Assembly: GCF_030717995.2 (NCBI RefSeq)
Contig: NZ_CP157743.1
Coordinates: 3,312,501 to 3,376,500 of the forward strand
DNA length: 64,000 bases
Direction: 5' to 3'
From: Methylomarinum sp. Ch1-1
Lineage (GTDB): Bacteria > Pseudomonadota > Gammaproteobacteria > Methylococcales > Methylomonadaceae
A program made the position numbers and the translations under genes. Shown piece after piece: positions 15,263-44,464 of the stretch (its first letter is position 1; each line of letters opens with the position of its first letter). The notes under the pieces are model-generated. The model saw nothing but the letters and a program-made list of their open reading frames with translations. It did no database searches and was not told the DNA's origin.

Positions 15263-15267
15263 ATTTG

Positions 15268-24931: not shown

Positions 24932-26518
24932 ATGACAAAAATCGAAGCATTATTCGAACATATACTGACCCATTATCGGGGAATATTCGCCACCTTCTTT
25001 CTCCTGCCTGTTTCCGTCGTCTATGGAGCCTACACGGACGCTCGTAACCGGATTATTTTTCGCCTCAACAGCGCTCCCGCCAAACACGACGCCAGAGTTA
25101 ATGCCATCATCCGGCAAATCGACGATTGGAAAAAACAAGGCGCCGGACAAAAACTCTGCACGGCCAGATCGGGCTGGAAAACCATGAGCGAGATGGTGCC
25201 CAAATACAAGCTTTCCCATCGCCGGATCAATATCGATCTGTACGACTTGCTTGAAGTAGACGAACAACGTCGCATTATTCGGGTGGAACCGTTAGTGACC
25301 ATGGGCCAGATCTCTCGCAGCCTGACATCGCGGGGCTGGACCTTGCCCGTGATACCGGAACTGGATAGTTTGACCGTGGGAGGCTTGATCATGGGGTTCG
25401 GCGTGGAAACCAGCAGCCATAAATACGGTTTGTTCCAACATATTTGCGAAGCTTTCGAGATCGTCACGGCGGAAGGGAAACTGGTCAAATGCAGCCCGAA
25501 CGAAAATCCGGAACTCTTTTATCAGATTCCGTGGAGCCACGGCACTCTAGGGTTTCTGGTGGCCGCCGAATTAAAGATCATCCCGATGAAAAAATACGTC
25601 CGGGTTCACTATCACCCCGTATATAGTCTGGACAGAATGATCAACCTGTTCGAGCAAGCCTCTCGCGACACCGAGAACAACGACTTCGTCGAAGGACTGG
25701 TTTACGGCCGCGATCAAGCGGTGATCATGACAGGAACATTAACCGACACCGTCGGTACGGACGGTTCCTTAAACGTCATCGGACGCTGGTATAAGCCCTG
25801 GTTTTACAAACATGTCGAGCGTTATCTGAACCGCAAGGAGGAAGCTGTCGAATATCTGCCGCTGCGGGATTATTATCATCGCCATACCCGCGGTTATTTC
25901 TGGACCATGGAAGAAATCATCCCGTTCGGGAATCACCCCCTCTTCAGAGCATTACTGGGCTGGGCTCTTCCACCCCGGATTGAGTTGCTGAAATATACGG
26001 AAACCGAAACCACCCGAAGGCTTCGGGAAAAATTTCATGTAGTCCAGGACATGTTGATGCCTATCCGCCATCTGAAACCATCCATCGACTATTTCGACGA
26101 ACATTTTAACCTCTATCCATTATGGCTTTCACCGATGGCGATTAAGGACAACGGCGAACATGCAAGCTTCGTTCAGCCATTTAAGAAGGAAAATGGCACG
26201 GTGGATGAACTGTTTGTCGATATCGGCGCCTACGGTACGCCATGCAAAAAGAATTTCGACAATACCGTTGCCCTGCCATTGTTGGAAAAGTTCGTCATCG
26301 AGCACGGGGGTTACCAGGCCTTGTATGCGAGAACCATGCTGAGTCGGGAAGATTTCCGATCGATGTTCGATCATACCGGCTATGACGAAATGCGACAAAA
26401 ACTGCCTTATTGCCGGCAAGCCTTCGATGAAGTTTACGATAAGGTTTCCTCGAATGGCCGGGTTTCGCCCGTGGAAATGAGACGCCTGGAAAAAGCGGAA
26501 AGTAAACGGTCGCGTTGA
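24932..26518 (+). CDS. DHCR24-like FAD-dependent delta24-sterol reductase
   Basis: A 528-residue flavoprotein expected to reduce the C24-C25 side-chain double bond of lanosterol-type sterols using NADPH. Similarity to human DHCR24 is striking by recall, for example RIIRVEPLVTMGQI, TLPVIPELDSLTVGGLIMG, SSHKYGLFQHIC, WSHGTLGFLVAAEL, VEGLVYGRDQAVIMTG and YYHRHTRGYFWTME. The FAD_binding_4 (PCMH-type) domain covers about 60-240. A single N-terminal hydrophobic stretch (IFATFFLLPVSVVYGAY, about 19-35) should anchor it in the membrane, as in the eukaryotic enzyme. It is the first gene of the sterol locus; saturated side chains are known in Methylococcus sterols. Reaction inferred from family and context. 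Confidence 0.88.
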   Translation: MTKIEALFEHILTHYRGIFATFFLLPVSVVYGAYTDARNRIIFRLNSAPAKHDARVNAIIRQIDDWKKQGAGQKLCTARSGWKTMSEMVPKYKLSHRRINIDLYDLLEVDEQRRIIRVEPLVTMGQISRSLTSRGWTLPVIPELDSLTVGGLIMGFGVETSSHKYGLFQHICEAFEIVTAEGKLVKCSPNENPELFYQIPWSHGTLGFLVAAELKIIPMKKYVRVHYHPVYSLDRMINLFEQASRDTENNDFVEGLVYGRDQAVIMTGTLTDTVGTDGSLNVIGRWYKPWFYKHVERYLNRKEEAVEYLPLRDYYHRHTRGYFWTMEEIIPFGNHPLFRALLGWALPPRIELLKYTETETTRRLREKFHVVQDMLMPIRHLKPSIDYFDEHFNLYPLWLSPMAIKDNGEHASFVQPFKKENGTVDELFVDIGAYGTPCKKNFDNTVALPLLEKFVIEHGGYQALYARTMLSREDFRSMFDHTGYDEMRQKLPYCRQAFDEVYDKVSSNGRVSPVEMRRLEKAESKRSR

Positions 26519-26660
26519 GTCGTTCAACCGAACCGCCGACATCATGCTAAATGTTTCGCTGTTCCTGTCGCCGCTTGACTAAGAAAATGCTGATCAATGC
26601 AGTATGTCCTGGAGGGCTGGACGCTCGCCCCAAATCGATCAGAATAAGTGATTGACTTTG

Positions 26661-26738
26661 CCCGGCAAATAAAATCACAGTTTTATTTCCCGGGCGCCGG
26701 GAAATCTAGGACGGATTTATTCAACGCGTCCCAAATAG
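26661..26738 (+). repeat. Dispersed repeat E, copy 1
   Basis: Shares GGCAAATAAAATC, CGCC(G/A)..GAAATC and AGGACGGATTTATTC with 27096-27171. Internal complementarity (AATAAAATC/ ..TTTTATTTCCCGGG) suggests a hairpin. Noncoding. Confidence 0.65.
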
Positions 26739-26761
26739 AAATCCTGCTTTCCATATTGATC

Positions 26762-26808
26762 CAGCAATTCCCACTTTGGCGTTCAAAAATACTCAAACTG
26801 AATTGCTG
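26762..26808 (+). mobile_element. MITE-A minimal copy (47 bp)
   Basis: Only the terminal repeats and adjoining bases remain (CAGCAATTCCCACTTTGGCG ... CAAACTGAATTGCTG), yet the flanking 9-bp duplication ATATTGATC (26753-26761 and 26809-26817) is perfect. So this is an internally deleted element that either transposed as such or was deleted after insertion. Confidence 0.88.
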
Positions 26809-27095
26809 ATATTGATCCACAAATTTGTGGATTACCCTGTTACCGAGTAGAATGGAAAAGTTTGTCTGCATCCGCCAATGTTCTTATGCAAGGATAAACA
26901 TAAGGAAATGTTGATTAATTCTTTATTTCCTGAAGTGCAGGGAGGCACGACAAAAATCGTTCTCAGTTAGCAATTTATTTGCGATAAAAGTCGCGAAGCG
27001 ACACCATGCTCTCCCTCGCCCTCCGGGAGAGGGAACGATCAGGCGCTTGACGTGTTGATTGACCAGGATGGCGCCAAACGCCATGATCGTTGATA

Positions 27096-27171
27096 CGGCA
27101 AATAAAATCGCATTTTGAGTTGCCGGACGCCAAGAAATCCAGGACGGATTTATTCGGTGCCTCCATAATTT
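27096..27171 (+). repeat. Dispersed repeat E, copy 2
   Basis: Second copy of the repeat at 26661-26738. Just upstream (27012-27032) is a CCCTCGCCCTCCGGGAGAGGG palindrome. The 26519-27217 gap as a whole holds repeats E, the 47-bp MITE-A and no gene; the sterol promoter for cyp51 must lie in its last part. Confidence 0.6.
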
Positions 27172-27217
27172 GTGGGGCATCAGCGTATCTTAAGAGCAAA
27201 CACTTTAAAATTGGGTT

Positions 27218-28861
27218 ATGACCAAGAAGACTCACGATAAAACCGTTCTTATGGGGAAATCCCCACCTAAGATGGCCGGCGCATTGCCGCTATTAGGTCA
27301 TATGCTCGAATTTGGCAAGAATCCCTTTGCCTACATGATGAAACTTAGAAATACCCTAGGAGAAATCGGTGAATTCCGCATGTTTCATCAGCAAATGGTG
27401 CTGCTAACCGGCCCGGAAGCCAGTGAAGCCTTTTTTCGCGCTCCCGATGCCCAACTGGATCAAAGTCAAGCCTATAAAATCATGACGCCGATCTTTGGCA
27501 AGGGCGTCGTTTTCGATGCCCCGCCGCATAAAAAAGATCAACAGCTCAAAATGCTGATGCCGGTATTGCGTGATCAACCGATGCGGGGTTATGCCCGAGT
27601 GATCGTTCGGGAAGTCGAACAGATGATTGCCGACTGGGGGGATAGCGGTGAAATAGATTTGCTCGAGTTCATGAAAGAACTCACCATATACACCTCCAGC
27701 CACTGCCTACTGGGCGATGAATTCCGTTATGAACTCAACGAAGAGTTCGCGCGCATATACCATGACCTTGAACAGGGCGTCAATCCCCTGGCCTTCGTCT
27801 TTCCCTATCTTCCCTTGCCCGTATTTCGCCGTCGCGACAAAGCCCGCGCCAGGCTGCAGGAATTGGTCACCGCCATCATCGACAAAAGAGCGAGAAAAGC
27901 GGAAAAAAGTGAAGATGCATTTCAGATGCTGATTGATGCCCGCTACGACGACGGCACTCGCCTATCCGCGCATGAAATCACCGGTATGTTAATCGGCACC
28001 ATTTTTGCCGGCCACCATACCACGGCTGGCACGGCGGCCTGGACCTTATTGGAATTGGCGCGCCGACCGGAATATTTGGACGCCGTGTTACAGGAACTGG
28101 ATGGCAATTTCGGCGCCGAAGGCGAAGTGACTTTCCAATCCTTGCGCGAAATTCCGGTACTGGAAAACGTCATCAAAGAAGTGTTGCGTTTGCATCCGCC
28201 GTTGATATTTTTAATCCGCAAGGTCGTGCAAGATTTTCATTTCAAAGATTATACCGTCAAGGCAGGAAAATACGTCTGCGCTTCGCCGCGCGTGTCCCAT
28301 CGCATCGCCGGCGTTTTCCCGGATCCGGAAAAATTCGATCCCGATCGTTATACGGAGGCACGCCAGGAAGATGCCCGCCCTTTTAGCTGGATCGCCTTCG
28401 GCGGGGGTAAGCACAAATGCTCCGGCAACGCATTCGCCATGCTGCAACTAAAGGCGATTTTCTGTATTTTGCTGCGCCGCTATACCTTTGAATTAATCGA
28501 CGACAAAGACAGTTATCAGGATGACTTTACCCAAATGGTGGTGCAGCCACAATCACCTTGCCGGGTTCGTTATGTCAAACGATCGCCCATCGCCGACGCC
28601 CAATCCGGGGCGGCCCTCGCTGACAACCAACAAAGCCAGGCGACGACCACTCCGGGCTTTCGAATAATGCTCGATCGGGAGCTTTGCCAGGGGCATGCCA
28701 CCTGCATGACCGAAGCGCCTGAACTTTTTCGGGTGGACGATGCCGGTCATGTCACCGTTTTACAAGAAAACCCGTCGTCCGAGTTACTGAAAAAAGCTCG
28801 GCAAGCCGAAAAATATTGCCCAACCCAGGCAATTAAAATTGAACTCAACAACCGCACCTAA
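27218..28861 (+). CDS. cyp51: CYP51 sterol 14alpha-demethylase fused to a 3Fe-4S ferredoxin
   Basis: A 547-residue fusion enzyme that removes the 14alpha-methyl group of lanosterol in three O2-dependent steps. The P450 domain shows the CYP51-type I-helix motif FAGHHTTAGTAAW, the ExxR motif EVLRLHPP and the haem loop FGGGKHKCSG (Cys401). An Ala/Gln-rich linker (about 458-480) joins a ferredoxin with ligands Cys490, Cys496 and Cys534-Pro; the central position is His (CQGHATC), which predicts a 3Fe-4S cluster. The same fusion is known from Methylococcus capsulatus. No N-terminal membrane anchor is present, unlike eukaryotic CYP51. It is followed immediately by the NTF2-like gene. Confidence 0.96.
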   Translation: MTKKTHDKTVLMGKSPPKMAGALPLLGHMLEFGKNPFAYMMKLRNTLGEIGEFRMFHQQMVLLTGPEASEAFFRAPDAQLDQSQAYKIMTPIFGKGVVFDAPPHKKDQQLKMLMPVLRDQPMRGYARVIVREVEQMIADWGDSGEIDLLEFMKELTIYTSSHCLLGDEFRYELNEEFARIYHDLEQGVNPLAFVFPYLPLPVFRRRDKARARLQELVTAIIDKRARKAEKSEDAFQMLIDARYDDGTRLSAHEITGMLIGTIFAGHHTTAGTAAWTLLELARRPEYLDAVLQELDGNFGAEGEVTFQSLREIPVLENVIKEVLRLHPPLIFLIRKVVQDFHFKDYTVKAGKYVCASPRVSHRIAGVFPDPEKFDPDRYTEARQEDARPFSWIAFGGGKHKCSGNAFAMLQLKAIFCILLRRYTFELIDDKDSYQDDFTQMVVQPQSPCRVRYVKRSPIADAQSGAALADNQQSQATTTPGFRIMLDRELCQGHATCMTEAPELFRVDDAGHVTVLQENPSSELLKKARQAEKYCPTQAIKIELNNRT

Positions 28862-28871
28862 GAAACAGAAA

Positions 28872-29474
28872 ATGACCGCATACCCCAGAGCAGAACTTGA
28901 AGAAATGGTTGAACGGTGGCTAGAGGCAAATCGTAACGCCGAAAAGGAAGGCAACTGGGCTAAATATCTCGGAGCGATGTATACCGATGACGCCGAATAC
29001 CGCTGGAATATCGGTCCCAATGAGGAATTTGTCGCGCGCAGCCGAAAAGAGATAGAGGAATGGGCCTTAGGAGTGCAAATGGAAGGCTTTGAAGAATGGC
29101 GCTATCCCTATCATCGCATTTTAATCGATGAAAAACTGGGCGAGGTCATCGGCTTGTGGCGACAAGTGTCCCCCGCATTGCGCGAAGACGGCAGCCATTA
29201 TGAAGTCGCCGGCATAGGCGGCTCTTGGTTTCGTTACGGCGGCCATTACAAATGGGAATGGCAACGGGATTTTTTCGATTTAGGCAATGTCAAAGCCTTG
29301 TTTTTTGAATTAGCCGCCGATGGCAAGCTAGACCCGGCCGTCAAGCGTAAAATTGGTAAATTAGCCAAAGGGCAATTGCTTCCGGGCCACGAGCGTTTAC
29401 GCAAACAATCGGGCTTATGGAAAAGACTGAAGGGAGTTATCGCCATGGTGAGGATCGCCCTGATTAACAAATAA
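28872..29474 (+). CDS. NTF2/SnoaL-like protein next to CYP51
   Basis: A 200-residue protein starting MTAYPRAELEEMVERWLEANRNAEK, the alpha helix and following beta segments (MYTDDAEYRWNIGPNEEF, WRYPYHRILIDEKLGEVIGLWR) of the NTF2/SnoaL/ketosteroid-isomerase cone fold. A C-terminal extension of about 55 residues is basic (KRKIGKLAKGQLLPGHERLRK) and ends in a hydrophobic stretch. ATG 28872 lies 11 bp after the cyp51 stop; an earlier in-frame start would overlap cyp51. Position suggests a sterol-pathway role (isomerase, binding protein or P450 helper). NTF2-like proteins also occur in the mycobacterial CYP51 neighbourhood (Rv0760c). Function not proven. Confidence 0.7.
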   Translation: MTAYPRAELEEMVERWLEANRNAEKEGNWAKYLGAMYTDDAEYRWNIGPNEEFVARSRKEIEEWALGVQMEGFEEWRYPYHRILIDEKLGEVIGLWRQVSPALREDGSHYEVAGIGGSWFRYGGHYKWEWQRDFFDLGNVKALFFELAADGKLDPAVKRKIGKLAKGQLLPGHERLRKQSGLWKRLKGVIAMVRIALINK

Positions 29475-29584
29475 TGCACTATTTGATGATGCATAACATT
29501 CAGCCCGCCATGGCGTGCTACCGCATCCGCTCCCGGCGGATGTCGGCATTTCCACCCTCCATGGCGGGCAGATGTCGCATCCAA

Positions 29585-29648
29585 CCCGGCGCCTAAATAC
29601 GGTAGGCTATTAGTTATGATTAATAATCTACGTAGTTTCAGGTAGCGG
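29585..29648 (+). repeat. Degenerate MITE-B-like sequence
   Basis: CGCCTAAATACGGTAGGCTATTAGTTATGAT resembles the MITE-B left half; the right repeat is degraded (GTTTCAGGTAGCGG). It lies in the noncoding gap before the oxidosqualene cyclase gene, close to its promoter. Confidence 0.5.
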
Positions 29649-29768
29649 ACAAACGTCGTTTTTAATGCAAGCAACAGACAGATAGAAAAGAATTGTTATA
29701 CTCTATGATTACGAATCCTTTAAGAACTGCGCCTCGCCTCATCAAGTAATACCCCCGTATCAGAAACT

Positions 29769-32015
29769 ATGTTGAATATAAAACCGGGCTGGAAAAACTG
29801 GCAACTGCTGACGGAAAAGGGAAGACAGGTTTGGGCATTCAAGTCCGACTCGCAGAATATCAACGAGCATTTGCAAAATGTCGACAATTTTACCGATGAA
29901 GATATAAAGCAGTTTGCCGAAGACTTTCGCTTCGACAGAACCGCCAATCCCAATTCCGGCGACAAGGTATACCGACACGCAGCGATCGCCGCCAGGTTTC
30001 GGCCATACGGCGGGCAAATCCCGCAAGCAGAGAACTCCGAACAGCAAGGCGTTATCGATGCCTTGGTCAAAGGCATGAACTTCTATTCCTTTCTGCAGAG
30101 TGACGACGGCCATTGGCCCGGTGATTACGGTGGTCCGCTTTTTCTGTTACCCGGCCTGCTGATCGCCGCTTATATCTCGGAAACGCCGTTTCCCCAAGCG
30201 CACCGGGAAATGATGAAACTTTATTTGTTCAATCATCAAAACCCGGATGGCGGCTGGGGGATGCATATCGAAGGCGAATCGACCATGTTCGGCACCGTCA
30301 TGCAATACGTGTCACTGCGCCTGCTTGAAGTCGATAAAAATCATCAGCAATTAATCAGGGCCAGAGAGTGGATCAAAAAGCATGGCGGCGCGACTGGCAT
30401 TCCTTCCTGGGGGAAATTCTATCTGTCGGTTTTGAATTGTTATGACTGGCGGGGATTCAACAGCCTGTTTCCGGAAATGTGGTTGTTTCCCAAATGGTTG
30501 CCGGTTCATCCCTGGCGTTACTGGTGTCATAGCCGTATGGTCTACCTGCCCATGGCCTATTGTTATGCCCGGCGCATCCAGGCGCCGGAAAATGACCTGA
30601 TTCTGTCATTGCGAGAGGAAATCTATAACGAAGATTTCAACGCGATCGACTGGCCGAAACAACGTGACGCCGTATGTGAAAAAGATCGCTATACCACGCC
30701 CTCTAAGGTGCTGAAATGGATGAATTTTTTCACCAATCAATATGAAAGATTCTACAGCTCATGGTTAAGAGCAAAATCCATCGATTTCATCTTGAAATAT
30801 CTCAATGCCGAGGATGAGCAAACCCACTACATCAACATTGGTCCCGTCAACCAAGCCATTAATTCCATTTGTATCTGGCATGCCTACGGTAAGAATTCCT
30901 CGCAATTCAAACAGCATGTCGCACGTTGGTATGATTATTTATGGGTTGCCGAAGATGGCATGAAAATGAATGGCTACAACGGTTCTCAGCTTTGGGATAC
31001 TGCGTTTGCCAGCCGCGCGATGCTGGAAAGCAGCCTGGGGAAACTGTTTCCGGATACTATTGCGAAAAGCTACCGATTTATCGAACTGTCCCAAATTAAT
31101 CAGGAGCACCCAACCCATGGCGAATTTTTCCGCCATCCCATGATAGGCAGTTGGCCCTTTTCGACTGCGGAAAATGGTTGGCCCGTCTCCGACTGCACGG
31201 CGGAAGGACTTAGCGCCACACTGGCCATACACCGCTCCGGTCTGGTGCGGCCCGTGGTCGATGAACATCGTATCAAACAGGCTGTCGATGTCATCCTGTC
31301 TTACCAAAACACCGATGGCGGCTGGGCCACTTATGAACTGACCCGCGGCCCCAAATGGCTGGAAAAACTCAACCCTTCCGAAGTATTTGCCGATATAATG
31401 ATCGATTACTCGTGGACCGAATGTACGGCGGCCTGCGTCATTTCCTTATTGGACTTTCGGCAAACCTATCCGGATTACAAAACTCGCGAAATATGCAGGG
31501 CCATCAGTGCAGGCATCGACTTTATCCTTAAACAACAAAAAGCGGATGGCTCTTGGTATGGTGGCTGGGCGGTCTGTTTCACTTATGCAACCTGGTTCGC
31601 TGTGGAAGCCCTCAGCAATGCCAGGGGCGCAGGCTATTATGACGATGCGCAACTGATGACCGGCATCGAAAAAGCGTGCGCCTTCCTGGTCGCCAAGCAA
31701 AAAACCGATGGCGGCTGGGGAGAGACCTTCGAATCCTGTGCCAAATTAGTTTACACCGAGACACCCAATTCACAGGTAATCAATACGGCCTGGGCCCTGC
31801 TAACGCTGTTTGCGGCTGATTTTACTGATGCAAAAGTCCTGGACGCCGGCGTCAGATTATTGTTGGACAGACAAACCGACCTGGGTGACTGGTCGCAGGA
31901 AAATATTTCCGGTGTATTTAACTATAATTGTATGATCACCTATGCGAATTATAGGAATATCTTCCCTATTTGGGCCTTGAATCGCTATTTTAGTCGCTAT
32001 ATTGCTGATAAGTAA
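29769..32015 (+). CDS. osc: Oxidosqualene cyclase (lanosterol-synthase type)
   Basis: A 748-residue membrane-associated triterpene cyclase converting (S)-2,3-oxidosqualene to a protosterol-derived sterol, most likely lanosterol. The catalytic motif is DCTAE (Asp475), diagnostic of oxidosqualene cyclases rather than squalene-hopene cyclases (DxDD). QW repeats are seen as QSDDGHW, QNPDGGW, QNTDGGW, QKADGSW, QKTDGGW and RQTDLGDW, with MWCYCR-like YWCHSRMVYLPMAYCYARR. The length matches the family. It is paired with squalene monooxygenase 218 bp downstream. Its last codon and stop come from an inserted MITE-C; the uninterrupted gene would have ended IADN-stop instead of IADK-stop. Confidence 0.96.
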   Translation: MLNIKPGWKNWQLLTEKGRQVWAFKSDSQNINEHLQNVDNFTDEDIKQFAEDFRFDRTANPNSGDKVYRHAAIAARFRPYGGQIPQAENSEQQGVIDALVKGMNFYSFLQSDDGHWPGDYGGPLFLLPGLLIAAYISETPFPQAHREMMKLYLFNHQNPDGGWGMHIEGESTMFGTVMQYVSLRLLEVDKNHQQLIRAREWIKKHGGATGIPSWGKFYLSVLNCYDWRGFNSLFPEMWLFPKWLPVHPWRYWCHSRMVYLPMAYCYARRIQAPENDLILSLREEIYNEDFNAIDWPKQRDAVCEKDRYTTPSKVLKWMNFFTNQYERFYSSWLRAKSIDFILKYLNAEDEQTHYINIGPVNQAINSICIWHAYGKNSSQFKQHVARWYDYLWVAEDGMKMNGYNGSQLWDTAFASRAMLESSLGKLFPDTIAKSYRFIELSQINQEHPTHGEFFRHPMIGSWPFSTAENGWPVSDCTAEGLSATLAIHRSGLVRPVVDEHRIKQAVDVILSYQNTDGGWATYELTRGPKWLEKLNPSEVFADIMIDYSWTECTAACVISLLDFRQTYPDYKTREICRAISAGIDFILKQQKADGSWYGGWAVCFTYATWFAVEALSNARGAGYYDDAQLMTGIEKACAFLVAKQKTDGGWGETFESCAKLVYTETPNSQVINTAWALLTLFAADFTDAKVLDAGVRLLLDRQTDLGDWSQENISGVFNYNCMITYANYRNIFPIWALNRYFSRYIADK

Positions 32016-32176
32016 CTATTCAGTATAAAAATGCTTTTACTATCAATTGCTTGCGGAAGAAGTGTATGCGACAGGGATGTCGCATCCAAGCCTATAGGGA
32101 CATATCCACGGCGTCTTCTGGAGCAAGTAACTGATAGTAAAAGAAATATTTTCTCAGTATCAAGCTGAATAGTTAC
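32012..32176 (+). mobile_element. MITE-C copy 2 (165 bp) overlapping the cyclase stop codon
   Basis: The ends GTAACTATTCAG and CTGAATAGTTAC are flanked by the 8-bp direct repeat GCTGATAA (32004-32011 and 32177-32184). The interior (TCAATTGCTTGCGGAAGAAG, ATGTCGCATCCAAGCCTATA, ACGGCGTCTTCTGGAGCAAG) matches the 51004 copy, here without MITE-B. Confidence 0.92.
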
Positions 32177-32233
32177 GCTGATAATTAATAACCCACGGAA
32201 GACCTTTAGAGGATGTGCTTTAAGTAGCTCAAT

Positions 32234-33634
32234 ATGAAATCAGAGTTCGATATTTGTATTATCGGCGCAGGCATGGCAGGCGCAACAATCGCCGCTTATC
32301 TCGCCCCCAGAGGCATTCGGATCGCGCTGATCGATCAAAGTTACGACGAGAAAAAACGTATCGTCGGTGAATTGCTGCAACCAGGAGCCGTATTAACGCT
32401 GGAGCAGCTGGGGCTGAAGCATCTACTGGATGGATTCGAGGCTCAGCCGGTCGCAGGATATGCCTTATTACAGGGCGACGAAAAAACCACCATTGCTTAT
32501 CCGCCTTCACATAACGGAATGGGCTTGCATAATGGCCGCTTTTTGCAACGAATCAGGGCTTCCGCCCTACAGAACGACACGGTCACGCAAATACACGGCA
32601 AGGCCCTGCGATTACTGGAAAACGACCGACATGAAATCATAGGTGTCAGTTACCGGGATTCCCTTTCTTCACAAATCCATTCCGTTTACGCCCCTTTAAC
32701 CATAACCAGCGACGGGTTCTTTTCCAATTTTAGAGAGCATCTCAGCAATAATGAAAAAACCGTAACTTCTTATTTTATCGGTTTGATTCTTAAAGATTGC
32801 GAAATGCCCTTCCCCAACCACGGACATGTATTTTTATCGGGACCGACTCCCTTTATTTGCTATCCGATTTCCAACAATGAAGTCAGATTGTTAATCGATT
32901 TCCCCGGCCAACAGACGCCGCGAAAAGTGCTGCTGCAACAGCATTTGGATACCAATGTCACGCCTTATATCCCCAAATCCATGCTGAAAAGCTACGAACA
33001 GTCTTTGCGACAGGGCGGTTTCAAGGTCATGCCCAACCATTATTTGGCGGCCAATCCTAAAATCCGCAAAGGGGCCGTGATGCTAGGGGATGCGCTCAAT
33101 ATGCGCCACCCCCTGACCGGTGGAGGGCTGACGGCGGTATTTTCCGATATTCAGATTTTGAGCGCCTATTTATTGGCTATGCCCGATTTTTCCAATACCG
33201 ATTTGATTCATACAAAGATCGAATCCTATTACCGGGACAGACAGAGAGCCAATGCCAACCTCAATATACTGGCCAACGCACTCTATGCCGTGATGTCCAA
33301 TGAACTACTGAAACTGGCAGTCTTTAAATACCTTCAGTGTGGCGGAAACAACGCCCAGGAGTCGATCGCCATTTTGGCGGGATTGAACAGGAGTCATTCC
33401 GTATTATTCAAGCAATTTTGTTTTTTGGCGATGTTCGGCGCCTGTAATTTGGTGCGTCAAAACGTTTTGAATTTACCCAAGGCCCTAAAACTGCTTACCG
33501 ATGCCTTCTGCATCATTAAGCCATTGATCAAAAACGAACTTCCCACAGTGTCACTTTTTTATCATAATCTCGCGAGAATAAAGACGCATATGCTTTCATA
33601 TTTAAATAATGGCTCCAAAATTCAAAGACCCTAG
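32234..33634 (+). CDS. sqmo: Squalene monooxygenase (squalene epoxidase)
   Basis: A 466-residue FAD monooxygenase making (S)-2,3-oxidosqualene from squalene with O2, the committed oxygen-requiring step of sterol synthesis. Motifs: N-terminal FAD site CIIGAGMAGATIAAYLA (GxGxxG at about 11-16), the squalene-epoxidase block VGELLQPGAVLTLEQLGL, and the second FAD motif LGDALNMRHPLTGGGLTAVFSD. A hydrophobic C-terminal half anchors it in the membrane. It follows the cyclase; only the MITE-C separates them, so cotranscription may have been affected by that insertion. A reductase partner is not encoded nearby. Confidence 0.95.
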   Translation: MKSEFDICIIGAGMAGATIAAYLAPRGIRIALIDQSYDEKKRIVGELLQPGAVLTLEQLGLKHLLDGFEAQPVAGYALLQGDEKTTIAYPPSHNGMGLHNGRFLQRIRASALQNDTVTQIHGKALRLLENDRHEIIGVSYRDSLSSQIHSVYAPLTITSDGFFSNFREHLSNNEKTVTSYFIGLILKDCEMPFPNHGHVFLSGPTPFICYPISNNEVRLLIDFPGQQTPRKVLLQQHLDTNVTPYIPKSMLKSYEQSLRQGGFKVMPNHYLAANPKIRKGAVMLGDALNMRHPLTGGGLTAVFSDIQILSAYLLAMPDFSNTDLIHTKIESYYRDRQRANANLNILANALYAVMSNELLKLAVFKYLQCGGNNAQESIAILAGLNRSHSVLFKQFCFLAMFGACNLVRQNVLNLPKALKLLTDAFCIIKPLIKNELPTVSLFYHNLARIKTHMLSYLNNGSKIQRP

Positions 33635-33716
33635 CTCTGAGACAGGTTTCGCTTTGCTCTAACTATTCAAGATACAAACGCTTTTTGATCTATTGAGATT
33701 CTATTTAATAACAGAC

Positions 33717-33761
33717 GTAACTATTCAGTATCTTTCAGGGTTTAGGGAGTAGACCAAGAAT
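33717..33761 (-). repeat. Truncated MITE-C end
   Basis: GTAACTATTCAGTATCTTTC and the following GTTTAGGGAGTAGACC match the reverse complement of the right end of the 43063 copy. The other end is missing. A shorter CTAACTATTCAAGATAC lies at about 33658. Confidence 0.65.
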
Positions 33762-33769
33762 TAGGCTAG

Positions 33770-33841
33770 CCGCCTACCGAATTAGTCCAGATGGTGCGGG
33801 AAGCCTACGAAGATTTTGTGCGCAGAGGCATGATTTTCTAA
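33770..33841 (+). pseudogene. Short gene-end remnant before the Rieske fragment
   Basis: The frame PPTELVQMVREAYEDFVRR then GMIF-stop has a protein-like composition but no start. It directly abuts the truncated MITE-C, so an element-associated deletion may have removed the rest of the gene. I do not recognise the family. Confidence 0.3.
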
Positions 33842-33883
33842 AACCCGTGCTCCCTCTCCTAACCATCAACCGAAGCTCAAAAG

Positions 33884-34315
33884 ATGAACAACGCACAACT
33901 GAAATATTCCCCCCCAACCTTTGCGAACGCCAAGAACCCACGGCAAAAAGCCCGCGCCTCCGGCTTGGACCCGAATCGTTGCTACGGGGTGGAATACGAC
34001 AATGCGATCAAAAAAGGCCCAATAAAAGAGGTGACTTTTTGGAAGACATCGATCGCCCTTTGCCGGGGCAAGAATGACGAACTCGCGGCGGAGCAAAACC
34101 GCTGCCCGTATCGCCAGCTCAACCTGACACATGGCGCAGTTGACCGGTGCAATCTGCGTTGCGCCTACCATGGCGGGTCTTTCAACCGGGGAGGCAGGCT
34201 AGAAGACTACTCCCATGACAGCTTTGGCAAACCGCTGATCAAAAGACAATGGCGAACCTATCCGATGCAGGTCCGCTATGGTTTGATATTGATCACCAGA
34301 GTTCCCGGCAAATGA
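33884..34315 (+). pseudogene. sdmA: Decayed Rieske oxygenase (SdmA-like) fragment
   Basis: 143 codons containing one Rieske-type domain, NRCPYRQLNLTHG..LRCAYHGGSF. The canonical 2Fe-2S motif is C-x-H..C-x2-H. Here the first histidine is replaced by tyrosine (CPY), while the second half CAYH is kept. The whole C-terminal catalytic domain with the mononuclear iron site (about 200 or more residues) is absent, since the next gene starts at its stop (ATGA). In Methylococcus, the Rieske protein SdmA with reductase SdmB removes one C-4 methyl from sterols. Position and domain suggest a dead sdmA; an alternative is a shortened Rieske ferredoxin-like protein, which the lost histidine makes unlikely. 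Confidence 0.6.
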
Positions 34316-37026
34316 AAATCACGCAGCGAATGGCCAAACTAGCGGAATATTTCGCTCTGCATCCAAGATGGGTTTTAGGGCTGACCCTGGTGTTGACGAT
34401 CATTGCCGGCTGGGCCGCTCAACAACTCCCGATTCATACCTCGCGTCAAGCGCTACTTCCCCAGAATACGGAGGTCGCGCAACGCTTCAACGATTTCTTG
34501 CAGAATTTCGGCGCCGCTTCGGATCTGATCGTCGTTTTGGAAGGCGCTCCACGCAGCGAACTGGAGTCCTTTGCCAACGATCTGGCCGCCAGGCTTAGAG
34601 CCGAACCCGAGATTGGACGGGCGACCTCCCGTCTCGACATGACATTTTTTCTGAACCATGCCTACCTGTTGCTGCCGAACGAAGGGCTGGATAAACTATC
34701 GGCCCTCGCTAACAACCCCATTGCGATCGACGGGGGATTGGAACATAACCTGGAAAAAGCCCTGAACTGGAGCCGAAAAAATTCTCCATCGGTGGGAACG
34801 GACATCGAGCTACAGACCGCCGAGGCCGGCCTGAACCTGGCCACGTTTTTCCTGGAACAATGGCGGCGCTGGTTATTCGCCGAAACAGTTCCTGAAGACC
34901 TGGACTGGAACCGGCTATTGGAAAAAAGTAGCGTGGGTGGCATGACCGACGGCTACTTTGCTTCACACGATGGTGGGATGCTGTTTGTTTTCGTCCACCC
35001 GAAAAACGCTTCCGGCAATTTCGAGCATTTGGGCCCCTTCGTCGATAAGGTCAAGCGGGTATCGGCGAACTTGATCGATCTAAGCCAAACCGCCGGCCAT
35101 ACTCCACCGACCGTTGGCTTGACCGGACTGCCGGCGCTCGAATATGAGGAATATGTCAACATTCGCCAGGATATCAAGTTCGTGACCATAACCTCCGCCA
35201 GCCTGGTCGCCATGTTGATTTTACTGGTAGTACGCAGCCTGCGCTGGGCCGCGCTCATTTTCATTCCGATGGGAATCGGCGTCCTGTGGAGCCTGGGCCT
35301 GGCACTGATCAGCGTCGGCCATCTGAATATGATCACCGCGGCCTTCATCGCCATTCTGTTCGGTCTGGGGGCGGATTACGGCATTTTCACCACCTCACGC
35401 ATCGCCGAGGAGCGCCGAGCAGGCAAACCCTTGCTGGAAGCGATCGGAGCCGGGATCGGTTCCTCTTTCACTGCGGTGTTGACGGCGGGCGGTGCTTCGC
35501 TACTGATCTTCGGCGCCCTCAGCACGGTCGATTTTCCAGGCTTCTCCGAACTGGGCATCATAGCGGCTTGCGGCGTGCTGATGATCCTGCTCAGCACTTG
35601 GCTGGTTCAGCCCGCGCTCTACGCCCTGTTGCCGCCAAAACTCAGAGTCGACTCCTCGCCAAAACCGGGTCTCTCCCCCGCTGCGTCGACCAAAAGCCTT
35701 ACCGGGTTTCCCAAGTTGCTCTCCTTAACCCTTGTCATACTGGCCATAGGTACTGCTGTCTTCGGCGGACTGAAAGGGTTCGCGGCCGATTTCGACTACG
35801 ACGTGCTGGCGATGTTACCCGAAGATTCCCAGGCGGCCTATTATCAACGGCGCATGGTTGAAGAGAGCGACATTCAACCCGAGGTCATTATTTTTACCGC
35901 ACAAGACATGGACGAGGCTCGACGAATCAATCGTGAGGCAGGTAAGCTGAAGACGATTGCGCAGACGCAATCTTTGACCGGCCTTTTTCCCGAGGATGCC
36001 GACCATCGGCTTCGGCAGGCCGAGAGTATCGGTGAGACGTTCTCCCGGAGCGATTACCGCAAGCAACTCGCCGAACTGGAGCACGAAGGCCTGTCGTCAA
36101 CATCATTCGAGTTAGTGAAGGCGATATTGGCGAACAGCACCACTATCATCGATCAGGCTCAGGAACAGGCATTCTCAGCGGGCCATGTCAGCCTGGTCGA
36201 GAGCTTGGAGAACATACGCGAGCAGTTGCGGGCGATAGCGGCTCAACTCAAGTCCGACGACCCATTGAGCCGGGCGCGCAGCGAGAGTTTTTTACGCGCC
36301 TTGATATCGGGCGCAAATGACGGACTCGATATCGTCGACCAATGGCATCAGGCGCGGCCGCTGATTCCGGAGAAGTTGCCGCCGGCCTTGCGTGAGCGTT
36401 TCTTTGCCAACGATGGCACTATCGCGGTTTACGCCTTTCCGGCAAAAACCGTATACGACCCCGACAACCTGGATGCTCTAATACAAGACGTCTATAGCAT
36501 TTCTCCGCATGCGACCGGCTTTCCGACCACGCAACAGGCCTTTGCCAAAGCCATGGTGGCAAGTTTTTCCCGCGGGACGCAATTATCGCTGGCGCTTTGT
36601 CTGCTTTGGGTCATGGCGGCAACACGCAGTCCGCTCGGGTTTACGCTGGCGGCACTCCCCCTGCTGATCGGCGGCGGTTGGATGCTGGGACTGATGGCTC
36701 TAAGCGGCATACGATATAATTATGCCAACATTGTTGCCCTGCCTTTGGTGATGGCGCTGGCTGTCGATTACGGTGTGTGGTTCAGCTATCGTTGGCGCGA
36801 ATTGAAGTTACATTCACCGTTTCAGGTCAGTCTGACTGTCGGCAAGGCCATCGGCCTGGCTGCCGGCACGTCATTGGCCGGCCTCGGCGCCATCACGTTG
36901 GCCAGCTATCGAGGCGTATCCTCGCTGGGCATGAGCGTCACGATCGGATTATTATGCTGTCTGACCGCAACCCTCGTCGTGAATCCAGCCATCGGACAAT
37001 TACTAGACTACAAGAGAAATAGATAA
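34312..37026 (+). CDS. bstA: RND-superfamily sterol transporter BstA (MMPL/HpnN-like)
   Basis: A 904-residue inner-membrane RND transporter of the HpnN/MMPL type. It has an N-terminal helix, a periplasmic loop of about 220 residues, a block of five to six helices (VTITSASLVAMLILLVVRSL ... ALISVGHLNMITAAF), then the same arrangement duplicated in the second half. Charged residues in the central helices (GLGADYGIFTTSR and ALAVDYGVWFSYRWRE) are the probable proton-relay sites. ATG 34312 overlaps the Rieske stop and opens on the first helix; a longer start at 34249 lies inside that gene. In Methylococcus, BstA moves C-4-modified sterols from the inner membrane to BstB. It is cotranscribed with bstB and bstC. 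Confidence 0.9.
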   Translation: MKITQRMAKLAEYFALHPRWVLGLTLVLTIIAGWAAQQLPIHTSRQALLPQNTEVAQRFNDFLQNFGAASDLIVVLEGAPRSELESFANDLAARLRAEPEIGRATSRLDMTFFLNHAYLLLPNEGLDKLSALANNPIAIDGGLEHNLEKALNWSRKNSPSVGTDIELQTAEAGLNLATFFLEQWRRWLFAETVPEDLDWNRLLEKSSVGGMTDGYFASHDGGMLFVFVHPKNASGNFEHLGPFVDKVKRVSANLIDLSQTAGHTPPTVGLTGLPALEYEEYVNIRQDIKFVTITSASLVAMLILLVVRSLRWAALIFIPMGIGVLWSLGLALISVGHLNMITAAFIAILFGLGADYGIFTTSRIAEERRAGKPLLEAIGAGIGSSFTAVLTAGGASLLIFGALSTVDFPGFSELGIIAACGVLMILLSTWLVQPALYALLPPKLRVDSSPKPGLSPAASTKSLTGFPKLLSLTLVILAIGTAVFGGLKGFAADFDYDVLAMLPEDSQAAYYQRRMVEESDIQPEVIIFTAQDMDEARRINREAGKLKTIAQTQSLTGLFPEDADHRLRQAESIGETFSRSDYRKQLAELEHEGLSSTSFELVKAILANSTTIIDQAQEQAFSAGHVSLVESLENIREQLRAIAAQLKSDDPLSRARSESFLRALISGANDGLDIVDQWHQARPLIPEKLPPALRERFFANDGTIAVYAFPAKTVYDPDNLDALIQDVYSISPHATGFPTTQQAFAKAMVASFSRGTQLSLALCLLWVMAATRSPLGFTLAALPLLIGGGWMLGLMALSGIRYNYANIVALPLVMALAVDYGVWFSYRWRELKLHSPFQVSLTVGKAIGLAAGTSLAGLGAITLASYRGVSSLGMSVTIGLLCCLTATLVVNPAIGQLLDYKRNR

Positions 37027-37862
37027 TGCGAAAAATCTGCCTGTTTATTGCTTTCATATGGACAACCTCGGTCGTCCATGCAGCCAACGAACCCGAAATG
37101 ATCGTGGTCTGCTACCCCGGGGGGAGCGTCAATACCAGGGATGCCAACGATGCGATGAGTTCCATGTTGCGGGTCGTGGAGCGTATCGGTCAATGGCAGG
37201 AAAACGGCTTTAACAGTCGATTTACCAGCCAAACCGACGAATGCCGGAAGCTGATGACCGAATACGAGCCCAAATTCGCGATTACCTCCCTAGGCCTCTA
37301 TCTGGAATTGCGCAAACGGCACAACTTGCTACCGCTGGTTCAACCCAGGATTAACGGGCGCACCAGTGAACGCTATCGGGTTCTGGCCAAGCAAGGCAAG
37401 TATAACAGCCTGGACCAGATGCAAGGACTAAGCCTGGGCGGTACGGTTTTGGCCGAGCCCGCCTTCATCGACAAGATCGTATTTGCCGGACAATACGACC
37501 TCGCCCAACACTTTCACCTAAAACCGTCCAAACTCGCGATCCGCACCTTACGCTCTTTGGACAAAGGGGAACTGGACGCCGTCATCTTGAACGAACAACA
37601 ATTCTCGGGACTTTCCGCACTGCATTTGCAATCGCCTCTCGAGGTCGTGTTCATATCGGCCGATATTCCGCTGATGGGTGTTGTGGCCAACGGCTCGGCC
37701 ACGACCGAGGAAGAGCGCGCCCGCTTCAGCCTGGCGCTGCAACATATGTGTAGCGACAGCGAGGGGCAAAAGCTCTGCGAACTGTTTGGCGTGGAATCCT
37801 TCAACCCTGTAGATGACGCGGTATTCGAGCCGCTGTTCAAGCTGTGGACCGAAGGGGGCTAG
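37026..37862 (+). CDS. bstB: Periplasmic sterol-binding protein BstB (PBP-like)
   Basis: A 278-residue secreted protein with a signal peptide (MRKICLFIAFIWTTSVVHAA). The mature part resembles periplasmic substrate-binding proteins of the PhnD/PstS-like type (MIVVCYPGGSVNTRD, FAITSLGLYLEL, LSLGGTVLAEPAF, LDKGELDAVILNEQQ). In Methylococcus the homologous BstB binds sterols in the periplasm and shuttles them between BstA and BstC. The start codon overlaps the bstA stop by one base (TAATG), so translation is coupled. Identification depends on the conserved bstA-bstB-bstC order as much as on sequence. Confidence 0.85.
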   Translation: MRKICLFIAFIWTTSVVHAANEPEMIVVCYPGGSVNTRDANDAMSSMLRVVERIGQWQENGFNSRFTSQTDECRKLMTEYEPKFAITSLGLYLELRKRHNLLPLVQPRINGRTSERYRVLAKQGKYNSLDQMQGLSLGGTVLAEPAFIDKIVFAGQYDLAQHFHLKPSKLAIRTLRSLDKGELDAVILNEQQFSGLSALHLQSPLEVVFISADIPLMGVVANGSATTEEERARFSLALQHMCSDSEGQKLCELFGVESFNPVDDAVFEPLFKLWTEGG

Positions 37863-37866
37863 GACG

Positions 37867-38676
37867 TTGCGCCGATTTCTCTGTTCAACCATTGCGATAT
37901 CGACATTTCTGGCCGGCTGCGCCGAGCTACGGAGCGATCCTGTCGGATTCGAGGATCTTGCCGACTGCCCCGAACAGACGACCGCAGGACTGATTAATCG
38001 ACAAAACCGACTCGGTCCTACGAGCAACAGCCAATCCCTTCAATGCGCATTGATTTTTTTACGCAACAGCGATGACCCCCGGCTTCGGCGCTCCCCGCTG
38101 GCTTCCCGCCTGTGTCTGCATCTGGCCGAACGTGAACCCGATCAGACAAAACGTGAACAACTTGCCGCCGAAGGGGTGGCTTTTGCCGAAGCGGCCTTAG
38201 CCCGGGACGGCGCCGATGACGGTGCGCTGCATTATTATCTGGCGGCCAACCTGGGTCTTGTCGTACGCGAACACATCGCATTGGCCATGAACAACCTAGA
38301 GCGGCTAGAACGCGAAATGCAACAAGCGCTGATATTGAATCCAGATATCGATCATGGCGGACCACTGCGCCTGTTGGGGGCGCTATATCTGAAAGCTCCC
38401 GCTTGGCCGACCGGCATCGGAGATATCGATAAATCACTGACTCTGCTGGCACGGGCCGTCGAACAACACCCGGAACATCCGCTTAACCACCTGTTCTACG
38501 CTCAGGCGCTTTGGCATGAAGATTATGAAACCAATCTGGGCCAGGTCAAAACCGAATTCGCGCTGGGAGAATCGTTATTGACCGAGGCTGACTGGGGCCA
38601 CAACGTCGTTCCGTGGAAAAACGAGTTCATCGAATTCGCACAGGAAATTGGACAGATTGAATCATCAAACCGATAA
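37867..38676 (+). CDS. bstC: Outer-membrane TPR-like lipoprotein BstC
   Basis: A 269-residue protein starting at TTG 37867 just after the bstB stop, behind a GGGGG-rich ribosome site. This start gives a complete lipoprotein signal with lipobox LAGC (Cys18). An ATG farther upstream is buried in bstB. The mature part is helical with repeats typical of TPR/TRAP T-component folds (EQLAAEGVAFAEAALARDG, RLEREMQQALILNPDID, LTLLARAVEQHPEHPLNHLF). In Methylococcus BstC receives sterols at the outer membrane. The lipidated N-terminus agrees with that placement. Last gene of the sterol locus. Confidence 0.85.
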   Translation: MRRFLCSTIAISTFLAGCAELRSDPVGFEDLADCPEQTTAGLINRQNRLGPTSNSQSLQCALIFLRNSDDPRLRRSPLASRLCLHLAEREPDQTKREQLAAEGVAFAEAALARDGADDGALHYYLAANLGLVVREHIALAMNNLERLEREMQQALILNPDIDHGGPLRLLGALYLKAPAWPTGIGDIDKSLTLLARAVEQHPEHPLNHLFYAQALWHEDYETNLGQVKTEFALGESLLTEADWGHNVVPWKNEFIEFAQEIGQIESSNR

Positions 38677-39122: not shown

Positions 39123-39505
39123 GTTTAGGGTGTGTTAAATAGCCCGCCCCGTGCGCATTGAATGCTTTTAGCCGATCCGCTGCGCGTGATCCATCTCACG
39201 GATGTGGGTAGGGTGTGCTGACGAGAGGAAGCGCACCATTTTTGATGCGCTTCACGCTGTTCAGCACATCCGAAGGCAAGGCTACATTGGCATGCAACAG
39301 GATTCGCCGCCAGGGAATCCACCTGGATTCGCACAACGGCCAATTTTGCCCCGGTGGCGGTTTTTGGCGGCTTGCTTCGCGAAGCCGCCCTACGATACGC
39401 TAGGGTGTGCTGACGAGAGGAAGCGCGCCGGTTTTTGATGCGTTTCACGCTGTTCGGTACATCCGAAGGCAAGTCAGTGCTTTGCATAGGAGCGTCGCCT
39501 TGGAG
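39123..39505 (+). repeat. REP1 composite, copy 2
   Basis: Contains REP1 hairpins at 39212-39271 and 39404-39464, separated by the same CTACATTGGCATGCAAC, CCAGG..CCTGGAT and GCTTGCTTCGCGAAGCC blocks as at 2510-2820. It is preceded by GGGTGTGTTAAATAGCCCGCCCCG, which also appears (reversed) at 18045. Confidence 0.8.
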
Positions 39506-40915: not shown

Positions 40916-42343
40916 TCATCCACCGCGAACCTGCTCAAGCTTCGTGCGTATATGATCAGCTAAGCGGAGAGTCAACGCAATAAGGGTAAATGTTGGATTA
41001 GCCCAGCTAGCACTCGGAAACACGCTGCCACCAGCAATATAAATGTTGCTGTAATCGTGCATCCGACTATTAGAGTCAACGACGCCATCGGCTTTATTCC
41101 TGGACATGCGTGTGGTGCCGAGATGATGATTCGAATGGAGTAATAAGCTATCATCGCGATCGATCAGATGGATAGTATCCCGCACCTTGCCGACATTAAT
41201 ACGCTCAAATTCGCGGCTTAAATAATTCGCCGTCTTTTCGTATGACTTCCAATCAAGTTCCGTGAGCCGCCAATCCAGGCGGACCCGACGCATTCCCAGG
41301 GAATCCGTTCGATCAGACAGGGTAAGCCGGCTGTTCGGATTGGGCGCTTGCTCCAAAAACATACCAACCTTCGGCGTTTCGTCGTCACTCATACTTGGCG
41401 TCCGATATATATGAGCACGAGCATTCAAAATTTGCGCTTCTTTCTGTATTCGTTCCGACAGCCCTACGCACAACAAAAACTGTTTTTCTTCGTCGAAATA
41501 CCCTCGTTCGAGCCAATTCTTGAATAAACCGACTCTTTCCACGGTCAACGCGCTAATAGACAGATGCGGATGTTCCATGAAGTTTCGTCCCACCCAGTCG
41601 TTGGCGTTACCCAGTCCGTGGCAAACTTGGGTATCCGAATTAAGCAGAATGCGCGCTGTCTCGATGCCACCGCACGCCAAAACAAAGATGTCGGCTGAAA
41701 TATGGCCTTCTCGCCCACTCAAGGTGCGTATTTTGAGCGTTGAGGCCATGCTGTGTTCAGCGTCTAGCCGAATATCAACGACATTCGCATGGGTCAACGT
41801 TATCACATTCTTCGATGTATCGAAGTGATCCCGATGGTGTTCGCTAATTCTCACGGTTGGCGTCCCAAACCGCCAAACAGTGGGGATGACAATCTCATTA
41901 TCGAAAGGAAGTTGGATTTCAGCGCGTCTCGCAATATCTCGAGGGTCAAAATTAAGATCGTCGATATTTAGTAATTTGGCGGTTTTTTCATAATAAGGTT
42001 TAATGGCTTCCACCCCGAATGGCCAACCACTGCCGGGAACCCATTCACGATGAGTGAAGTCATGAGAATCGAAAACAGCGCAATATCCTGCCCATAGTGC
42101 GGAAGACCCGCCGAATTGACGTGTGCGTGTTTCAGTCAGCGGGTAGTCGATGCCCACACATTCACCGATTTGCAGCGCCTGCAGGTCTGCATCGACTTCA
42201 AATCCGCCGCTTTCGATAACAAGCACCGGACCCAAATCGGCCAATTCATTCGCCAAAGTCAGTCCCGCAGGCCCCGCCCCAACGATAGCTATCTGAACCG
42301 ACCGATTCAAATTCACTTTTTCATCTCGAGAATCAAGGATCAT
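40916..42343 (-). CDS. GMC-family FAD-dependent oxidoreductase
   Basis: A 475-residue flavoprotein. It has an N-terminal ADP-binding fold IAIVGAGPAGLTLANEL (GxGxxG at 22-27), the family block QFGGSSALWAGYC, a central CGGIETARILL, and the GMC C-terminal catalytic region HHLGTTRM and SWANPTFTLIALTLRLADH, providing the usual His and Asn. Members oxidise alcohols (glucose, choline, sugars, hydroxyl groups on natural products). It is divergent from the 2OG oxygenase gene (105-bp gap), suggesting shared regulation. Its codon use is more AT-rich than the housekeeping genes, as in the rest of this locus. Substrate unknown; acting on the modified peptide is a hypothesis. Confidence 0.85.
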   Translation of the reverse strand: MILDSRDEKVNLNRSVQIAIVGAGPAGLTLANELADLGPVLVIESGGFEVDADLQALQIGECVGIDYPLTETRTRQFGGSSALWAGYCAVFDSHDFTHREWVPGSGWPFGVEAIKPYYEKTAKLLNIDDLNFDPRDIARRAEIQLPFDNEIVIPTVWRFGTPTVRISEHHRDHFDTSKNVITLTHANVVDIRLDAEHSMASTLKIRTLSGREGHISADIFVLACGGIETARILLNSDTQVCHGLGNANDWVGRNFMEHPHLSISALTVERVGLFKNWLERGYFDEEKQFLLCVGLSERIQKEAQILNARAHIYRTPSMSDDETPKVGMFLEQAPNPNSRLTLSDRTDSLGMRRVRLDWRLTELDWKSYEKTANYLSREFERINVGKVRDTIHLIDRDDSLLLHSNHHLGTTRMSRNKADGVVDSNSRMHDYSNIYIAGGSVFPSASWANPTFTLIALTLRLADHIRTKLEQVRGG

Positions 42344-42447
42344 GTCAAATACATTCGTTCTTGTTATTATTGAATTTTAAGCCCGATTGCACCAAACTTT
42401 GAGCGACTATCATAGATATTACTTAATAACTTGAGAACCATGCCATC

Positions 42448-43047: not shown

Positions 43048-43062
43048 TAATAAAGATTTTAC

Positions 43063-43220
43063 GTAATTATTCAGCGTAGTTTTACTAAGAGGGAGTAGGT
43101 TATTGATTTATCGGGCTGTCTGCAACAGGACGTTGCAGTCAGAGCTTACATGGATGTATTCACGCGTCCCGAGAAATCAATGACCTACTGCCTAAAACCC
43201 GAAAGATACTGAATAGTTAC
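43063..43220 (+). mobile_element. MITE-C copy 3 (158 bp, second interior type)
   Basis: The ends GTAATTATTCAG and CTGAATAGTTAC are flanked by the 8-bp direct repeat GATTTTAC (43055-43062 and 43221-43228). Its interior is the type seen at 2877, here uninterrupted (TTATTGATTTATCGGGCTGT), and provides the empty site for MITE-A. It lies between the 2OG oxygenase and arginase-like genes. Confidence 0.92.
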
Positions 43221-43268
43221 GATTTTACAAATTTCAAAACCTTAGTCTGATTACCTACCCATTTTCAT

Positions 43269-44264: not shown

Positions 44265-44464
44265 GAGAGAGGCACCGATGTTGCAAAACAATGAAGCGTT
44301 TTCATACTTGTGATATTTAGACGGGGGCCGAAACCATCATACCTCTGGCTTAGATTCCTCAGGCGCCCTACGAGTAAATCAACAGAATTTGATATGTCTA
44401 CATTTTCATTCTTCTCCAAGTCGTAATTAGATGAAGATTCTCAACCAAAACAGGATTAAAAGGC

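Follow-up and report, generated by a model that had tools for sequence, protein, structure and literature searches.

A locus for sterol synthesis and outer-membrane sterol transport occupies positions 24932-38676 of a 64,000-nucleotide stretch of the Methylomarinum sp. Ch1-1 genome (contig NZ_CP157743.1; hereafter the window), and within it the genes of the C-4 demethylase module, sdmB and sdmA, are reduced to fragments. We propose that this is a Methylobacter-type locus for making and exporting sterols in which C-4 demethylation has been lost and the Bst transporter carries a 4,4-dimethyl sterol, a reading to which we assign a probability of roughly 0.77. The gene content and order, the family memberships, the retained functional residues, the sdm remains and the lack of other sdm copies were observed directly, and the reactions, product and cargo discussed below are in every case predicted.

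The sdm remains lie between the genes for squalene monooxygenase (SMO) and BstA. By blastn, window positions 33755-34281 are collinear with positions 14781-15314 of the M. luteus locus L090 (76% identity, E 1e-112), and relative to M. luteus the window lacks about 948 nt of sdmB ahead of the collinear stretch and about 709 nt of sdmA beyond it. What is left of sdmB matches residues 317-343 of M. luteus SdmB by tblastn (78% identity, E 5e-10, one stop); SdmB proper, an NAD(P)-dependent reductase, is about 340 aa long, and the window has only a 27-codon tail of it with a stop. The sdmA gene is cut after about codon 133, and the non-haem iron domain is gone: the NF052579 match covers profile positions 4-124 of 351 and scores 96 bits against a cut-off of 600, where a complete SdmA joins a Rieske domain to a C-terminal non-haem iron domain in about 350-370 aa. 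In addition, the first Rieske ligand histidine (CxH), kept in 8/8 full-length SdmA proteins aligned, is replaced by tyrosine. The genome containing the window (4.77 Mb, 3 contigs, rated 100% complete) has no SdmA elsewhere at E<=1e-8, the sole match being the relic itself (residues 1-142), and no SdmB match at E<=1e-30 anywhere. The original prediction, made from the letters of the window, had described the locus as near-complete; this description needs correcting, as the C-4 demethylase module has been cut down to fragments by deletion. The possibility that the Rieske open reading frame (ORF) is an intact stand-alone ferredoxin of the pathway was ruled out by the lost histidine and the adjoining sdmB tail.

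Table 1. Genes and gene remains of the sterol locus, in window coordinates.
Feature	Position	Strand	Basis of assignment
Predicted Delta24-sterol reductase (D24-reductase), DHCR24-type FAD enzyme, 528 aa	24932..26518	+	FAD_binding_4 only
CYP51 (sterol 14-alpha-demethylase) with C-terminal ferredoxin fusion, 547 aa	27218..28861	+	p450 265 bits, Fer4_15/Fer4_13
8,14-sterol reductase (8,14-Bsr), 211-aa ORF	28839..29474	+	homology to G017 gene
Oxidosqualene cyclase (OSC), lanosterol-synthase type, 748 aa	29769..32015	+	SQHop_cyclase; TIGR01787 679 bits, over cut-off
Squalene monooxygenase (SMO), 466 aa	32234..33634	+	squalene epoxidase PF08491 266 bits, over cut-off
sdmB remnant, last ~27 codons with internal stop	33755..33841	+	tblastn with M. 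luteus SdmB
sdmA remnant, N-terminal Rieske domain only, 143 aa of 368	33884..34315	+	NF052579 SdmA
BstA, RND inner-membrane sterol transporter, 904 aa	34312..37026	+	NF045600 1563.7 bits (cut-off 1400)
BstB, periplasmic sterol-binding protein, 278 aa	37026..37862	+	NF045601 451.1 bits (cut-off 350)
BstC, outer-membrane-associated sterol-binding lipoprotein, 287 aa	37813..38676	+	NF045602 404.7 bits (cut-off 350)

The gene order is D24-reductase, CYP51-ferredoxin, 8,14-Bsr, OSC, SMO, sdmB/sdmA remains and bstABC, all on the plus strand (Table 1). The seven genes named in the original prediction are intact ORFs that span exactly 24932-38676, and chance resemblance is no concern for their identities. 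Their description as contiguous on one strand applies only loosely, given that about 700 bp precede CYP51 and about 680 bp separate SMO from bstA, the latter gap containing the sdm remains; and the gene list, correct for all seven, had overlooked 8,14-Bsr at 28839-29474 and the sdm remains at about 33755-34315. Homology gives good support to the suggestion of a compact unit that would produce and modify sterols and deliver them to the outer membrane.

Families were assigned with Pfam and NCBIfam profiles and their family cut-offs, and the resulting pathway would run as follows. SMO, which shares 75-83% identity with the gene following OSC in most relatives of the family and 56-61% in Methyloprofundus-type loci, would epoxidize squalene; a squalene-synthase-family gene is present elsewhere in the genome. 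OSC would then cyclize the epoxide to lanosterol. Its best solved match is human lanosterol synthase (1w6k, E 1.5e-216, aligned over 96-744), and it retains the equivalents of the catalytic acid D455 (DCTAE) and of V453, the residue that, by a rule quoted in PMC4919349, marks lanosterol synthases as opposed to cycloartenol synthases with I453. CYP51, which combines a P450 and an Fe-S ferredoxin in one protein and is mostly 81-86% identical to OSC-neighbour genes in family relatives, would remove the C-14 methyl group and leave a Delta8,14 diene. The adjoining 211-aa ORF is without any Pfam or NCBIfam match and is assigned by homology as 8,14-Bsr, an enzyme described in 2026 as NTF2-fold in PMC13277303, where the tested residues are listed: the protein is 69% identical to the gene of the M. 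capsulatus-like genome G017 and retains all six of these residues (Y37, Y43, Y78, Y80, D133 and D136), four of which (Y37, Y43, Y78 and D133), together with an adjoining CYP51, characterize the enzyme, and the NTF2 fold is assigned by homology alone. Its true start is probably at 28872, giving 200 aa, and it would convert the Delta8,14 diene to a Delta8(14) monoene. Finally, the side chain would be saturated by D24-reductase, which solved structures match only distantly; it is 80% identical over 522 aa to an M. luteus gene 1.5 kb after bstC, whose position is that of MetluDRAFT_1263, called a DHCR24 homolog in PMC4919349.

Since sdmB and the catalytic domain of sdmA are gone, neither C-4 methyl group would be removed, and the predicted end product is 4,4-dimethylcholest-8(14)-en-3-ol. 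Sterol profiles given in PMC4919349 agree with this gene-to-product logic: M. luteus, which has sdmAB and D24-reductase, contains 4,4-dimethyl and 4-methyl sterols, all C-24-saturated; M. lacus, without DHCR24, shows no side-chain saturation; and M. alcaliphilum contains a 4,4-dimethyl sterol only. We infer that the genus of M. alcaliphilum is our g2, because L107 (M. buryatense) and G008 give the same OSC place, and neither sdmAB nor BstA was detected in any of the five g2 genomes at the thresholds used.

If the 4,4-dimethyl product is as predicted, Bst should carry it, and BstA in the inner membrane, BstB in the periplasm and BstC in the outer membrane would move it outward. The three Bst proteins are NCBIfam equivalogs over their cut-offs, encoded together by genes that overlap or abut one another; the listed bstA ORF opens at 34249, and the BstA starts of relatives align with 34312. 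BstB matches the M. capsulatus BstB structure 7t1m at E 9e-108 and BstC the BstC structure 7t1s at E 4.7e-86 (the G017 BstB and M. capsulatus chain 7t1m align without visible difference). As judged by the contact residues listed in PMC10942540, the positions that touch the sterol hydroxyl are retained (equivalents of BstB E118, Y120 and N192, and of BstC E86), and 20/22 of the listed pocket positions in BstB and 13/16 in BstC are identical to M. capsulatus. Mean pN/pS ratios (nonsynonymous to synonymous differences) between the window and its relatives are 0.27 for BstA and 0.32 for BstB, compared with 0.24 for both among the relatives; these low values suggest that BstA and BstB are under purifying selection. 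In M. capsulatus, removal of the genes was attempted and failed (PMC10942540).

The same block is found in relatives of the window. In a sample of 201 genomes of the order, OSC was detected at E<=1e-60 in 78 genomes (43 in the family of the window) and BstA at E<=1e-100 in 43 (16 in the family); the BstA search scored only 3-4 candidates per genome, and a very divergent BstA may therefore escape. SdmA, SdmB, D24-reductase and 8,14-Bsr were searched for in 80 genomes, made up of 76 OSC-bearing genomes (OSC-bearing G093 and G107 were left out), G131 and the congeners G143, G157 and G179; D24-reductase matches at E<=1e-60 were obtained in 54 of the 80, and 8,14-Bsr in 72. The order D24-reductase-CYP51-Bsr-OSC-SMO-bstABC on one strand is common to the window, G129 (L172), G142 (L173) and Methylobacter sp. 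BlB1 (L181/L033), the last being the nearest named locus by OSC. None of these three relatives has sdmAB, but unlike in the window no sdm remains were found in their SMO-bstA gaps of about 160-490 bp. Locus L185/L043 has the same order with intact sdmB-sdmA and a 5'-incomplete D24-reductase gene. M. luteus (L090/L180; MetluDRAFT_1253-1263) shares the order and strand of CYP51-Bsr-OSC-SMO-...-bstABC and has D24-reductase in the same locus, but sdmB-sdmA lies intact between SMO and bstA and D24-reductase follows bstC, whereas in the window D24-reductase precedes CYP51 and sdm is present as fragments only. Between bstC and D24-reductase, M. luteus has a 378-aa minus-strand ORF (L180 14661-15797), possibly an insertion element. 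In the Methylothermaceae OSC loci L093 and L094 (52% OSC identity), the opposite strand carries SMO and D24-reductase, and the loci also encode an RND protein that is 23-24% like BstA. Within the genus of the window, g1, none of the three other sampled members has OSC at E<=1e-60; all three congeners retain pyrF and three upstream genes, which places only the left flank.

These genes do not form one block in Methylococcus, as the original prediction had stated. The sterol genes of the M. capsulatus-like genome G017 are spread over four contigs, and in the complete Methylococcus-group genome G041 they are scattered over the chromosome (Bsr at about 0.61 Mb, OSC at 0.73, D24-reductase at 2.46 and sdmAB/bst at 2.79). 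M. capsulatus has BstABC equivalogs (window BstB and BstC are 60% and 55% identical to the G017 copies), but they are encoded in an operon with functional sdmAB, with OSC and SMO elsewhere in the genome (PMC10942540); M. capsulatus-type OSC and SMO are of another lineage, 33-34% and 22-23% identical to those of the window, and 8,14-Bsr lies away from OSC there, whereas it stands between CYP51 and OSC in the window and its relatives. As a novelty, the one-block arrangement does not hold. According to the locus tags of Wei et al. 2016 (PMC4919349), CYP51, OSC, SMO and DHCR24 are 1253, 1255, 1256 and 1263 in M. luteus and 3865, 3867, 3868 and 3875 in M. whittenburyi, which puts four of the genes inside 11 consecutive tags; bst genes adjoin osc and smo in some species (PMC10942540), and the 8,14-Bsr paper figures such clusters, per the legend (PMC13277303). 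With several family relatives carrying the same block and the M. luteus tags in print since 2016, the arrangement was already known, and a unique one-block cluster is ruled out. The synteny comparison thus largely found what had been named beforehand as counting against the claim, namely clusters already described in close relatives.

Among the 16 family genomes with BstA, nine have full-length SdmA and SdmB (G088, G136, G146, G151, G160, G180, G186, G190 and G197), six have neither (G051, G128, G129, G131, G142 and G182) and one, the genome containing the window, has a relic; G131 keeps BstA with no OSC or 8,14-Bsr match, its BstA contig being only 7.8 kb. Methylomonas lenta, like Methylobacter sp. 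BlB1, has bst and no sdmAB. Genomes that combine full-length SdmA and SdmB with no BstA match at E<=1e-100 are G121 and G194 of the family and G037, G055, G058, G064 and G073 of family f4, and seven g4 genomes have a 42-43% identical SdmA together with SdmB (partial in one, G175) and no BstA at E<=1e-100. According to PMC10942540, every other methanotroph genome that carries sdmAB also has bst homologs, and in methanotrophs that produce sterols bst is always co-localized with osc, sdmA and sdmB; our sample does not fit this wording in either direction, as it contains both Bst without Sdm and Sdm without Bst. We found neither bst retention in the absence of sdmAB nor sdm remains described in the portions of the literature covered (including PMC12004948, PMC10202945 and PMC6460317, with Lee et al. 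2018 on SdmAB lying outside them).

A tree of seven joined proteins was built from 14 loci holding OSC and BstA together, leaving out L176, L177 and L178 (BstA not beside OSC), L186 and L187 (family f4), L046 (contig without bst) and, as duplicates, L033, L040, L042, L043, L045, L066, L068, L085 and L090. On this tree, sdm status needs at least four changes. Grouping the six sdmAB-less rows of the tree as one clade was rejected (approximately unbiased test, p-AU 6.8e-5), as was a clade of the window with L173, L174 and L175 (p-AU 7.7e-5), in tests where a number of the inner branches have weak support and the groupings were chosen with the tree already in view. Change counts alone are silent on gain versus loss; loss is favoured because relatives with an intact module have sdmB-sdmA exactly between SMO and bstA, a shared position, and because remains are present in the window. 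A wider proposal, to which we give even odds, is that BstABC export is independent of C-4 demethylation, the two being separable modules: SdmAB would have been lost in several lineages while the Bst pocket stayed unchanged and carried 4,4-dimethyl cargo in vivo. At the listed Bst pocket positions, no shift is seen in the sdmAB-less rows taken together, and between 7 sdmAB-less and 10 sdmAB-bearing rows the separating columns number 0 in BstA, 0 in BstB and one in BstC; a convergent pocket change in the sdmAB-less lineages was dropped for want of evidence in this column comparison.

Several observations weigh against the loss of C-4 demethylation and a 4,4-dimethyl cargo. The Rieske remnant retains an open frame of 143 aa, and it alters 9/85 columns that are invariant among the eight full-length SdmA (including the CxH histidine), a share similar to that of BstB (12/122) and BstA (38/467); sequence decay alone is therefore no proof of a dead remnant, and the codon-level test is only suggestive (mean pN/pS 0.228 for the fragment versus 0.140 among the others). 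ERG24 was not found in the genome, but the control genomes are silent too, which makes this absence weak evidence. The genome also contains three FA_hydroxylase-family genes (ERG25 superfamily). With the open frame of the remnant and the unchanged Bst pocket residues, these genes would fit C-4 demethylation by another enzyme, either an ERG25-like FA_hydroxylase or one with the Rieske remnant as partner, with Bst still receiving a 4-monomethyl sterol. Two of the three, however, have orthologs (77% and 89%) in the congener G157, which is without OSC; the third, of 591 aa (L200), has only weak matches in G157 and nothing close to it in the FA_hydroxylase loci from seven genomes. Moreover, the remnant is without the non-haem iron domain and one Rieske histidine, and eukaryotic-type C-4 demethylase homologs were absent from the Methylococcales tested by Wei et al. 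(PMC4919349), so that we regard such a substitute enzyme as rather improbable. The L200 protein (745-2520; G000:C2 near 3843745) has an FA_hydroxylase-like N-terminal half and a C-terminal half that, judged by eye, is apparently creatininase-like.

The binding data pose a different difficulty: in vitro, M. capsulatus Bst binds 4-monomethyl sterol 30-90x tighter than 4,4-dimethyl sterol, with dissociation constants of 2.4-4.4 uM versus at least 81-232 uM (PMC10942540). This preference, and the retention of BstA in G131 as described above, could mean that Bst of sdmAB-less lineages has a different main cargo, such as another lipid or a sterol moving inward, and that its place beside OSC is merely inherited. 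Against this, bstABC directly follows SMO in five other sdmAB-less genomes (L172, L173, L174/L042, L175/L040 and L181/L033), and the sterol contacts BstB E118, Y120 and N192 and BstC E86 are unchanged; we consider a different cargo unlikely, though marginally less so than a substitute demethylase. An error of assembly or sequencing, with sdmAB intact in the organism, is a very improbable explanation of the sdm remains. Only one assembly was examined, but the fragment differs from M. luteus DNA by many substitutions (76% identity) and has a stop and a lost ligand, the module is missing at both ends, no second copy exists in the complete-rated assembly, and five other OSC-bearing genomes show the same absence. 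Loss of C-4 demethylation with a 4,4-dimethyl cargo is the reading that we retain.

The surroundings of the block contain repeats and mobile elements. A 74-nt direct repeat, in two copies 80% alike (26663-26736 and 27096-27169), lies in the gap between D24-reductase and CYP51, and further direct repeats are located downstream of bstC (39209-39473). A REP-associated tyrosine transposase, two IS4/IS701-like fragments and an IS110 transposase flank the block on both sides (14744-15262, 15884-16438, 18243-18764 and 46612-47625). Next to the sterol block, positions 40916-45673 encode a GMC oxidoreductase and a GrrM/OscB-like radical SAM/SPASM protein (TIGR04261, 293 bits, cut-off 310), with a weak peptide-arginase-like ORF at 43269-44291. 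This group is possibly a cyclophane gene cluster of the ribosomally synthesized and post-translationally modified peptide type; no Gly-rich precursor was found among the small ORFs.

Based on these observations, the window contains a real locus of a known kind, and its sdm-loss variant sharpens the question of what Bst carries. The retention of Bst after loss of the enzyme that makes its best in vitro ligand provides a natural test of cargo specificity. If our proposal is true, sdmAB-less lineages export a sterol that binds Bst weakly in vitro, and sdmAB-less methanotrophs would be predicted to leave 4,4-dimethyl rather than 4-methyl steranes.

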